DNA of 64,000 bases from assembly GCA_018401435.1 (NCBI GenBank), contig JAGYJW010000020.1:45554-109553 (forward strand), written 5' to 3'. Shown here in pieces: positions 7,501 through 14,181 of this stretch. Position numbers and translations under genes: made by a program. This stretch comes from Deltaproteobacteria bacterium. GTDB lineage: Bacteria > Myxococcota_A > UBA796 > UBA2385. Below the pieces are notes generated by a model. That model was not told where the DNA came from and did not search any database. It saw nothing but the letters and a program-made list of their open reading frames with translations. Positions within the stretch are counted from its first letter, which is position 1; each line of letters opens with the position of its first letter.

Positions 7501-8661
7501 TCCACATCTACGGCCGCGACCAAATCGTAGAGTACAAGACGGTCGTCGCGCAATGGTACCGCGTCTGCCACGCCTTGCCGCTCCGGGTGGTCATTGTCCG
7601 CGTGACGACGGGCGAAATCGCCTGTCGAGTCTACTTCTCCAGCGACGCCACCATGAGCCTGAGGAGATCTGAGCCTACGCTCTCCGGTGGCCCATCGAGG
7701 TCACCTTCCGCGACCTCAAGCAGCACCTCAGCTTCCGCCGACCCCGAACCGGAAGAGAGGGCCGCAGTCAGGCACGCCCCCTGGGTGGGCCTCCTCTTCT
7801 CCATCACCGTCCTCTCTGGTACGACAGCGTTGGCCACGGGTCCGCCTTCGACTGGGTACTGCGCCCCTGGTACCGCCAGCGCCGAAGCCCCTCTTTCCAG
7901 GAGGTCCTCGCGACGAGCAGGCGAGCGGCAGCCGCGTCGGCATTTGTTGATCAAATGTGCTGGTGCACTTCGGCAGCAAATCGGAGGGTCACCACTTGCG
8001 GAAGACCCACGGCATCCTCGTCACGATGCGCTGCGTGATGGAGAGTCGAAGACTCCGAAACACGAGTCGAACGCGGGGACTTCTCCTCTTTCGGCGATGG
8101 CGTCCCAACAGCCGACCAGGACGCCCACCCGGCCTACAACGTGACCTGGTGGGAGGCCGCTGCCTTCGCGGCCTGGATAGCGACCCTGCGCGACGACTGG
8201 GGTGGCTGTCGCCTGCCTGCCGACGTCGAGTGGGAGTACGCCTGTCGCGCGGGCTCCCAGGGTGATTATTGGTCCGGAGACGGAGCGGAGGCCCTCGATA
8301 AGGCTGGCTGGTACGGCAGCAACAGCGGCGGGCATCCGTGGCCTGTGGGCCAGAAAGCACGCAACTCCTTTGACCTGTTCGATGTACACGGCAATGTCTG
8401 GGAGTGGTGCGGGTCGCCCTGGGTGGACGTCCTTGTTGCCGCTGCTGCGGCTGCTGACGGAGGTCTCGTCCACCACGCGCCGGCAGTTGCGCCGCCCGCC
8501 GCGGACCCCTCTGCGATGCGGGTCCTCCGCGGCGGCTCGTGGAACTTCCCGGCCGCGGACGCGCGTTCCGCCTTTCGGGGCAGGGTCCGGCCCTCGAACC
8601 GGGACGTCAACGTGGGCTTTCCGCCTCGCCTCCCACCAGCCGGTGGACGCTGGGACCTTAA
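4543..8661 (+). CDS. NACHT/STAND NTPase with C-terminal FGE-sulfatase (CLec-fold) domain carrying VR1; DGR target 1; frameshifted and interrupted by an IS at 6536-8068
   Basis: Walker A WVLEGEPGAGKSTLLKM, Walker B VVLLLDGADEVDQ, LTNPLLLTLVAVLVV, FRHRALREHLAASRIAEL; FGE start IWREIPAGEGVIGSPEGVDHRDERPRFRL...PVTNSLYECFDPGH; after the IS, PAYNVTWWEAAAFAAWIATLRDDWGGCRLPADVEWEYACRAGS...FDLFDVHGNVWEWCGSPW...[25 protein letters not shown] start at 4543 would overlap the SIR2 gene stop. Confidence 0.75.
6536..8068 (+). mobile_element. IS701/IS4-like DDE transposase insertion (degraded frames) inside the FGE domain
   Basis: Fragments across frames: VSLDDTRWRRKG/PRVWGIGNHR, HRPWALPVLFRLYRA, ARELVQLVASWVKTRRIRVLGDSAYCCAEV, YGRDQIVEYKTVVAQWYRVCHALPLRVVIVRVTTGEIACRVYFSSDA; imperfect terminal inverted repeats GACTGCGTGTTTCG (6536-6549) and CGAAACACGAGTC (8056-8068); FGE homology resumes on both sides. 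Confidence 0.75.
8506..8641 (+). repeat. DGR variable repeat VR1
   Basis: Aligned to TR 10016-10150: 11 substitutions, all at TR adenines, none elsewhere before GTGGGCTT; a +1 T and three substitutions in the 3' GC-only end. Confidence 0.95.
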
Positions 8662-8673
8662 GACTCTTGGGTT

Positions 8674-11283: not shown

Positions 11284-11295
11284 AACTCCAAGAGT

Positions 11296-14181
11296 CTAGG
11301 TCCCAGCGTCAACCGGCTGGGGGAGGGCGAGGCGGAAGCCCACGTCGTTGTCCCGGAGCGAGGGCCGGTTCCTGTCCCGATAGGCGGAACGCGCGAACGC
11401 GGCCGGGTTGAGCCACGAGCCGCCGCGGAGGACCCGCATCGCAGAGGGGGTGGCGGGGGCTGGGGTCACACCGAAGGCTGCAGGGTCGGCGCCCGCGTCT
11501 TCGGGGTAGGCGGCGAACCAGTCCTGGCACCACTCGAAGACGTTGCCGTGGATGTGGTGCAGGCCCAGCGGGTGGGCGGGCGCGCCCGGGATGGGCTGGG
11601 TGACCTTCGCCGGGTGGTCGCCACCGGCGAGGTGTTTCCGCGTGGTGAGCAGCACCGCGCAGCGCTCCAGGCTGGCAAGGTCACCGAAGGCGCTGGCACC
11701 GCGGGCATAGGCGCCGTCGACGCCGCCCCCGCGACAGGCCACCTCCCACTGGTGCTCGGTGGGCAAGGTAGCGCCGCGCCACGCAGCATAGGCGCGGGCC
11801 TCCCACCACCCCAGGCGAAATGCGGGCAGGTTGTCCAGCCAGTCGTCTTTCTCGGATGCGAAATAGGAGCGCGAAAAGGACCGGTATTCGGCGACGCTCA
11901 CCGCGGCCCGGGCCAGCCGGTAGGGCGACAGCACGACCGGGTGCAGCGTCTCGTCGCGCTGGACGTCCTCGTCCTCGGGAAAGCCCCCGACCTGAAAGCG
12001 GCCGGCGATGACCGGCGACCACGAGCCGTCCTCGGCGTCGAGCGCTGGCGGGTCGCCCCGGGCGACGCGCATGGCCCGCACCACCGCCGCATGCGCGTCG
12101 GCAGCCCGGTCGGGCGAGCCCAGGCTGTCCGCCGCCGCCAGCAGCGCCCCCCAGAAGCTCTCGGGCTGCGGGTGGCCGGCGACATGGGGCGCCAGGTCCA
12201 CAACCAAGGGTGAAATTTGCGCGTGGCGCTCGTCTTCACTGATCCAGGCCGGACCGGTTCCCAGGATGTCGTCGCGGCGATCGGCGTCCAGGCTCAGGCC
12301 CGCACGCAGGACCTCGGCCAGGGCCGCACCGTCCAGGCCCAGGTCGGTGCGCAGCGCGTGCAGCGCCCGCAGCGGCTCGCCCGTCTCGATGGGGGCCGCG
12401 CGAACCACGCCGGTCAAGCGCGTCCGCTCCTGCCTTGCCCAGCTCTGCTGTGCGGCAGCCCACCAGTCGCTCATCGCGGCGGTGCGCGGCAGGGCCTCCC
12501 ACCGGGCGCGCAGCTTGGCCACCGTATCGGTGTCCAGCACGACGGCCCCGGGGTCGTGGCTCTTCCAAGCGGCGGTCCGGCTGGTGACCAGGCGCCAGAG
12601 GGTGAGCACCTCGGGATCCAGCTCCCGGGCCAGGGCGGCTGCCGGATCGGTGATCAGGCGGTGCACCTCGGCGGCGACGCGATCGTGGGGCAGGGTGGCA
12701 TGGTCGGTGTGGTCCAGGCGCTCCACCCGCACCAGCCAGACCCGCTCGTCGCGAAGCTCGCGCAGCAAGGCCTGGCCGGCGGCGCCCACACTCTGCGTCA
12801 GGTCGTCCACCGGCACCGCCCGGCGACGCCCCTTCTCGTCCACGAGCTGGGCCAGCAGCAGCAAGGCGTCGGTGCGCCGGGCGCGTTGGGTGTCGGCGGG
12901 CTCGTCGGCGTAGAGTCGATCGACGACCATGGCCAGGCTGGTTGCAATGTGGGCGGCGATGGCATCGTTGAGGAGCGCGGCTGCCTCTGCTGGGTCCACG
13001 GGCACCCGAAGCACCTGGGGGCGGGTGGGACCGGCGCCCTGGCGCAGTCTTTCGAGCACCACCTGTAGCTCCGGCGTGAGCGGCGCGTCCCGGTCGCCGC
13101 CCTCTCCTTCGCGCGCGCCGCCAAAGGCCTCGGCCAGCCGCCTCGCCTCCTCCTCCTCCAGGCGCACGTTGGGATAGTGGCCGGTTCGCAGGGGCTTGAG
13201 CATCGCGTCCTTGAAGCAGGCGACCGCGTGCTCCAACCGATCGGCTGTCCCCCTCGCATCACCCAAGACAGGCAGGGGCCATTCCAGGCCCCGCAACCGC
13301 GGAGGCGGACTGGCGCGCGTCTCTTCACACCAGCGCAAGGGGTCATTCAGCAGAAACCGCACCCTTCCGTGAAACTCGTGGCGATAGGCCAGCACCCAGC
13401 GGCAAGGATTGCCCCGCTCCGCGGTGGCGACCAGCAGCTGGCCCAGACGCGCCCGCGCCCTCGTGTCCTCCCCCAAGAATACCTCCTCGACCTGATCAAG
13501 GACGAGAACGGGGGCGGCGCCCGCCTGAAGCCCGACCTGGTCGACGAGATCGAGGAAGCCGTCCAGGTCGTCCGGCGCGAAGGTGGGCTGGTCCTGCACA
13601 ATGCAGCGCGCAAGCTCATGCAGCAGCCCGATGCTATTGGGCTGCCGGACAAGGGCGGCGGGGCGCCGGGCATTGCCCAGGGCAGGCAGGAGGCCGGCCA
13701 TCAACAGGCTGGACTTTCCCGCGCCAGACAGCGCATAGACGGTGATCAGGAGCGGGTCCTGGTCCACCGCCTCCAAGAGCGACTGCAGATCGGCGTCGCG
13801 GCCGCCCAACAGGTCTGGGTGTCGGACCGGCCCCAACACCGGCCACGGCGCCAGTGGCGGCGGGCCGGGGTCCCAGAAGCGCAGCGCCAGGGGAGCGGCG
13901 TTGGCCTTCGGCTGCTGGAGGGGGGCTGCCCAAAGTGCGCGGATTTCTACTTCGCGGTTCGGAAGCTTCTCGAGGAGCCGCGCCAGAAGTACGTCGTCGA
14001 TCGCGTTCAGGCGCTCCAATGCCTGCGCGACCTGGAGGCAGAAGATGGGATGGGGCAGGTTGCGCCCCGCCGCATCCAGCGCTTTCAGGCCCTGCTGCAG
14101 CGGCGCGAGGGCCAGCGTCAGCTCGTCCGCGTTGAAGGCCTTCTCGAAGAAGGCGGCCAGCGATGGGCTGGACGGTGGCAT
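11296..14181 (-). CDS. N-terminal helical/EAD-like domain, nSTAND NTPase and C-terminal FGE-sulfatase (CLec-fold) domain carrying VR2; DGR target 2
   Basis: Open frame; MPPSSPSLAAFFEKAFNADELTLALAPL...; Walker A VYALSGAGKSSLLMAGLLPAL; Walker B APVLVLDQVEEVF; FGE: RLGWWEARAYAAWRGATLPTEHQWEVACRGG...HHIHGNVFEWCQDWFAAYPE...[47 protein letters not shown]. Confidence 0.9.
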   Translation of the reverse strand: MPPSSPSLAAFFEKAFNADELTLALAPLQQGLKALDAAGRNLPHPIFCLQVAQALERLNAIDDVLLARLLEKLPNREVEIRALWAAPLQQPKANAAPLALRFWDPGPPPLAPWPVLGPVRHPDLLGGRDADLQSLLEAVDQDPLLITVYALSGAGKSSLLMAGLLPALGNARRPAALVRQPNSIGLLHELARCIVQDQPTFAPDDLDGFLDLVDQVGLQAGAAPVLVLDQVEEVFLGEDTRARARLGQLLVATAERGNPCRWVLAYRHEFHGRVRFLLNDPLRWCEETRASPPPRLRGLEWPLPVLGDARGTADRLEHAVACFKDAMLKPLRTGHYPNVRLEEEEARRLAEAFGGAREGEGGDRDAPLTPELQVVLERLRQGAGPTRPQVLRVPVDPAEAAALLNDAIAAHIATSLAMVVDRLYADEPADTQRARRTDALLLLAQLVDEKGRRRAVPVDDLTQSVGAAGQALLRELRDERVWLVRVERLDHTDHATLPHDRVAAEVHRLITDPAAALARELDPEVLTLWRLVTSRTAAWKSHDPGAVVLDTDTVAKLRARWEALPRTAAMSDWWAAAQQSWARQERTRLTGVVRAAPIETGEPLRALHALRTDLGLDGAALAEVLRAGLSLDADRRDDILGTGPAWISEDERHAQISPLVVDLAPHVAGHPQPESFWGALLAAADSLGSPDRAADAHAAVVRAMRVARGDPPALDAEDGSWSPVIAGRFQVGGFPEDEDVQRDETLHPVVLSPYRLARAAVSVAEYRSFSRSYFASEKDDWLDNLPAFRLGWWEARAYAAWRGATLPTEHQWEVACRGGGVDGAYARGASAFGDLASLERCAVLLTTRKHLAGGDHPAKVTQPIPGAPAHPLGLHHIHGNVFEWCQDWFAAYPEDAGADPAAFGVTPAPATPSAMRVLRGGSWLNPAAFARSAYRDRNRPSLRDNDVGFRLALPQPVDAGT
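11315..11449 (-). repeat. DGR variable repeat VR2
   Basis: 135/135 length match to TR; 9 substitutions, all at TR adenines; 3' GC-only segment GTGGGCTTCCGCCTCGCCCTCCCCCAGCC identical to TR. Confidence 0.96.

Follow-up and report, generated by a model that had tools for sequence, protein, structure and literature searches.

A cellular DGR with one template repeat and two STAND-NTPase targets, probably intact beneath assembly errors

DGRs are bacterial systems that copy a template into genes while randomising every adenine. The closest described relatives of the locus considered here are the clade-5 DGRs of multicellular bacteria, where several DGRs occur per genome (Dore et al. 2024, PMC10907252). 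Clade 5D commonly has a pair of targets, in which nSTAND1 or NACHT is joined to CLec (PMC10907252). The same study describes transposon-broken variants that coexist with intact ones, and the sole HTH gene named in its main text is at a clade 5A locus. FGE/FGS domains diversified by DGRs are also described in NTPase-based conflict systems of the vWA-MoxR ternary type (Kaur et al. 2020, PMC7159879), and the Bordetella phage BPP-1 DGR combines a template repeat (TR), variable repeat (VR), reverse transcriptase (RT) and Avd with an inverted repeat 3' of the VR (PMC3240598).

We analysed a window of 64,000 nucleotides (the whole stretch of DNA examined) from a Deltaproteobacteria bacterium, in which the order is VR2 target, HTH, Avd, TR, RT and then a convergent VR1 target preceded by a SIR2 gene, with everything from HTH to RT on the minus strand between VR2 and VR1 (Table 1). 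Likened by target make-up, the locus fits with the STAND-NTPase/C-lectin DGRs of Dore et al. 2024. As in DGR 3 and DGR 6 (clade 5D) of Thiohalocapsa PB-PSB1, there are two targets with a central nSTAND1 or NACHT and a C-terminal FGE/CLec that carries the VR, and as in that bacterium the genome has more than one DGR and a transposon breaks part of a locus while an intact variant coexists (PMC10907252). Unlike DGR 3 and DGR 6, however, the window pairs one nSTAND1 with one NACHT target and has an HTH protein before Avd, and its effector neighbour is SIR2, whereas Thiohalocapsa PB-PSB1 has trypsin-EAD8 or an S8 peptidase. The locus shares with the systems of Kaur et al. a DGR-diversified FGE domain in an NTPase-based conflict system, but is STAND-based. 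The components listed above for BPP-1 all have counterparts in the window, though here the DGR is cellular, has two targets, and its inverted repeat stands ~30 nt after the VR, with a stem that is imperfect and without a clear 4-nt GRNA loop. To the few DGRs that apparently give bacteria hypervariable NLR-like sensors, the locus contributes a case with two receptors and a SIR2 effector, in a genome with two such DGR systems.

Table 1. Features of the locus, in window coordinates
Feature	Position	Strand	Remarks
SIR2 effector gene	3285..4563	+	directly 5' of VR1 target; SIR2_2 2.6e-20, ThsA-like SIR2 2e-11
VR1 target	4544..8660	+	NACHT and C-terminal FGE/CLec; convergent with RT
IS element	6538..8068	+	~1.5 kb, >10 genome copies; inside VR1 target; absent from C21 allele
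VR1	8506..8643	+	C-terminus of NACHT-FGE target; 11 A-site changes; exact to ~8617, then small indels
GC-rich inverted repeat 3' of VR1	8668..8715	+	homologous to repeat after VR2
DGR reverse transcriptase	8836..9854	-	~20-23 apparent frameshifts; read-through without in-frame stop
Template repeat (TR)	10016..10151	-	sole copy; every VR difference on TR adenines
Avd-like accessory protein	10211..10549	-	frame broken in assembly; frameshift-aware alignment
HTH_17-type accessory protein	10551..11174	-	frame broken in assembly; frameshift-aware alignment to L007 homologue
GC-rich inverted repeat 3' of VR2	11246..11290	-	common to VR1 flank; absent after TR
VR2	11315..11450	-	C-terminus of nSTAND1-FGE target; 9 A-site changes; 3' end identical to TR
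VR2 target, 961 aa	11299..14181	-	nSTAND1 NTPase (residues 125-274), C-terminal FGE/CLec (724-952); intact

Alignment of the three repeats found them at the positions and with the readings of the initial annotation, and agrees with its count of substitutions, all on TR adenines. When VR2 is aligned to TR over 136 bp, 9 of 22 TR adenines are changed and none of 114 other sites, and for VR1, up to the GTGGGC at ~8617, the corresponding figures are 11/21 and 0/90, so that the non-A bases before the 3' end are unchanged, as had been claimed. Pooled, 20/20 substitutions fall on TR adenines against 0/204 at non-A sites, for which the probability by chance is about 1.5e-16 given a TR that is 16% A. 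The invariant GC-rich 3' segment common to TR and VR2, proposed earlier as the initiation-of-mutagenic-homology region (IMH), is identical down to 11315, an identity borne out by the 136 bp alignment. That account of the 3' end holds for VR2 but left unmentioned that VR1 departs from TR and VR2 after ~8617, with one inserted base, a short run of mismatches and a net shift of frame; these small indels are probably noise. The mutable core of TR (TGG AAC AAC ... AAC AAC AAC GTG) has its 20 adenines spread over nine AAC codons, one TAT and one AGG, which can give about 4.6e11 peptides and cannot reach a stop codon. Searched with a 70-base adenine-masked TR, the 7.13 Mb genome returned TR, VR1 and VR2 as its sole matches, and a masked TR/VR pattern found no JGI metagenome contig with this VR. 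The locus is supported by sequence criteria as a genuine DGR because of the A-only changes, the invariant 3' end, the adjacent homologue of intact RTs that have an IGxxxSQ motif and the same cassette type, the Avd-like gene and the VRs at the C-terminus of C-type-lectin/FGE domains.

The FGE part of the VR2 target matches formylglycine-generating enzymes and the Treponema denticola DGR variable protein TvpA (PDB 2y3c; E 7e-12), which likewise has an FGE-like CLec with the VR at its C-terminus. The best relative of the whole target among 5.8 billion proteins has 45% identity, GTDB contigs gave distant relatives only, and none were found in the same order at E<=1e-40. To our knowledge, TvpA has no STAND NTPase. 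The window allele of the VR1 target is broken near 5149-5164, near 5935-6025 and by the IS, and the SIR2 gene has a frame break near 3970 in the window. An EAD1 domain was suspected by eye in the SIR2 protein, but Pfam gave no supporting match. Another contig of the same assembly, C21 (2958 bp), carries the VR1 target gene as a single open frame without the IS; it is 98.8-100% identical to the window over 3976-8447, its differences are confined to a few dense clusters, and it ends 60 bp before VR1. This allele appears to represent strain variation at the DGR locus. Judging from one bin, IS-bearing and IS-free open alleles of the VR1 target appear to coexist in the sampled population. The IS insertion looks recent, since to the right of the site the two alleles match at 100% over 379 bp.

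The description of the locus as a complete DGR core stands for the repeats and the gene order; for the machinery it does not, as there are no open frames for RT, Avd or HTH in the present assembly. It took frameshift-aware alignment to an intact relative, L007, whose genome belongs to another family within the same order, to recognise any of the three. Against the L007 homologues the RT scores 532 (44-55 for shuffled DNA; 151/342 identical), the Avd-like protein 198 (34-51) and the HTH protein 167 (51-69). The RT of a second DGR in the same genome (contig C161) was too distant to serve as alignment template, for which L007 proved suitable. The read-through RT also matches its family profile and is homologous to the intact RTs of L007 and P0143 (LPIGACTSQ, YVDD), which have the same position relative to TR, and its catalytic YxDD site reads FAGRPV in the window. 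The HTH homologue (L007 213-797) is Pfam HTH_17, and the Avd-like homologue of L007 matches the bAvd profile weakly, below cutoff. Both accessory genes, broken here, are intact in relatives.

The IS offers a measure of sequence quality beside the RT. Its copies on C61 and C156 are identical to each other and open, and compared to them the window copy shows 49 indel events. It also has 47 substitutions, among which, on one strand, A<->G (28) outnumber C<->T (2; p=9e-7). The copy C112a shows the mirror-image strand bias, and in the copy on C161 the differences are nearly all one-base indels (25 indels, 5 substitutions). Dense one-base indels and strand-biased substitutions in several IS copies point to uncorrected long-read sequence at the repeats of this assembly. 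True decay should leave mostly substitutions, with no strand bias. The indel density and the biased substitutions of the IS thus form a pattern of error, not of decay. The density of frameshifts in the RT (21 per 981 bp) and in the window IS relative to an intact transposase (30 per 1408 bp) is the same, ~21/kb, and a truly dead RT is therefore not established. The window RT keeps 43 of 65 readable family-invariant residues, compared to 43/61 for the intact RT of the second DGR with the same profile. At the error rate of the IS, ~9 errors would be expected in the 136 bp of the TR, which lies within the noisy stretch but has none; the noise must therefore be patchy. No 16S rRNA was found in the assembly as an error control. 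Uncorrected long-read patches are thus the likely source of most of the damage to RT, Avd and HTH; for the RT, whose region is single-copy in the genome, we infer this from the IS. More generally, a live DGR can appear dead where a metagenome assembly contains such patches.

We consider with fair confidence that one TR serves two targets in this cellular DGR, that the element is probably intact and has probably been active recently, and that its frameshifts are mainly assembly error. The YxDD site as it reads here, the single-copy RT region and the error-free TR count against this reading. The main competitor, which we regard as unlikely, takes the same DGR to have died recently: the frameshifts in RT, Avd and HTH would be true, the VR1 gene killed by the IS and only the VR2 gene left, as a frozen sensor. 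The missing open frames for all three genes and the IS inside the VR1 target agree with this, as do the degenerate loci with transposon-broken parts in Thiohalocapsa (PMC10907252). However, a density of ~21 frameshifts per kb without any in-frame stop, the retention of family-invariant residues, repeats free of non-A drift, and equal indel density and strand-biased substitutions in IS copies that have clean versions elsewhere in the genome are all difficult to reconcile with a dead system.

A dead local RT might be replaced in trans by that of the second DGR, which is intact and has its own TR/VR pair with 14/14 changes at A sites; the TRs of the two DGRs are ~70% alike. Since the RTs belong to different subfamilies (39-44% identity), the accessory genes differ (HRDC and bAvd on C161 versus HTH and Avd in the window) and no other VR of the window TR turned up across the genome, we consider this very improbable. 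Lastly, the repeats could be duplicated FGE tails that have diverged or been misassembled, given a noisy region and FGE C-termini that may be repetitive, but 20/20 changes on the adenines of one copy, in AAC and TAT codons and beside homologues of RT and Avd, leave this reading practically no probability, and we consider it refuted by the A-only pattern.

If the DGR is intact, the TR RNA would be reverse-transcribed by the neighbouring RT together with Avd and, probably, the HTH protein, its adenines being copied at random, and the cDNA would prime at the invariant 3' segment and replace VR1 and VR2. In this way ~11 codons would be rewritten in two STAND-NTPase (NLR-like) proteins, within their C-terminal FGE/C-lectin sensor domain. 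The NACHT-FGE target would work with the SIR2 effector, presumably in anti-phage sensing. Going by their families, the tip of the FGE/CLec domain should bind a ligand, the STAND NTPase oligomerise and the SIR2 protein deplete NAD; STAND oligomerisation and NAD depletion by SIR2 are established for known STAND and SIR2 defences.

The inverted repeats flanking the VRs have fold z-scores of -2.2 and -1.7 when taken as isolated elements and are not significant in a longer flank. Some relatives (L065, L067) have 9-bp perfect stems ~50 nt past the target end, and other relatives have none, so the case for hairpins at the VR flanks is weak. By eye, a recurring TTGA..CTTGG-like stretch can be seen in L054-L067, C161 and the window, where it lies between the inverted repeat and the stop codon of the target.

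The cassette HTH-(Avd)-TR-RT with FGE targets and adenine-only TR/VR pairs recurs in L054, L057, L058 and L065-L067. In metagenome relatives of the L007-type RT, TR and RT are accompanied by HTH, in most cases by Avd, and by one or two FGE targets; L057 and L067 share the layout of the window, with a codirectional target upstream and a convergent one downstream. The N-termini of the targets in these relatives vary among NACHT, nSTAND1, TIR, protein kinase, EAD1 and metallophosphatase. In every relative whose sequence reaches far enough upstream (L007, L053-L058, L065-L067), an HTH_17-type protein lies 5' of Avd, next to the target. A literature search of partial coverage did not find this HTH protein named as a DGR accessory. 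We tentatively raise the possibility that it is an unrecognised standard accessory, perhaps for target-site recognition or control of TR/RT expression, that defines an HTH-Avd-TR-RT cassette between two convergent sensor genes.

The second DGR of the genome lies at ~54.5-57.0 kb of contig C161 (L001). Its RT of 324 aa reads YMDD and IGNLTSQ at the characteristic motifs and is accompanied by an HRDC gene, a bAvd gene and a TR; the corresponding VR, with its 14 substitutions all on TR adenines, lies in an FGE protein.
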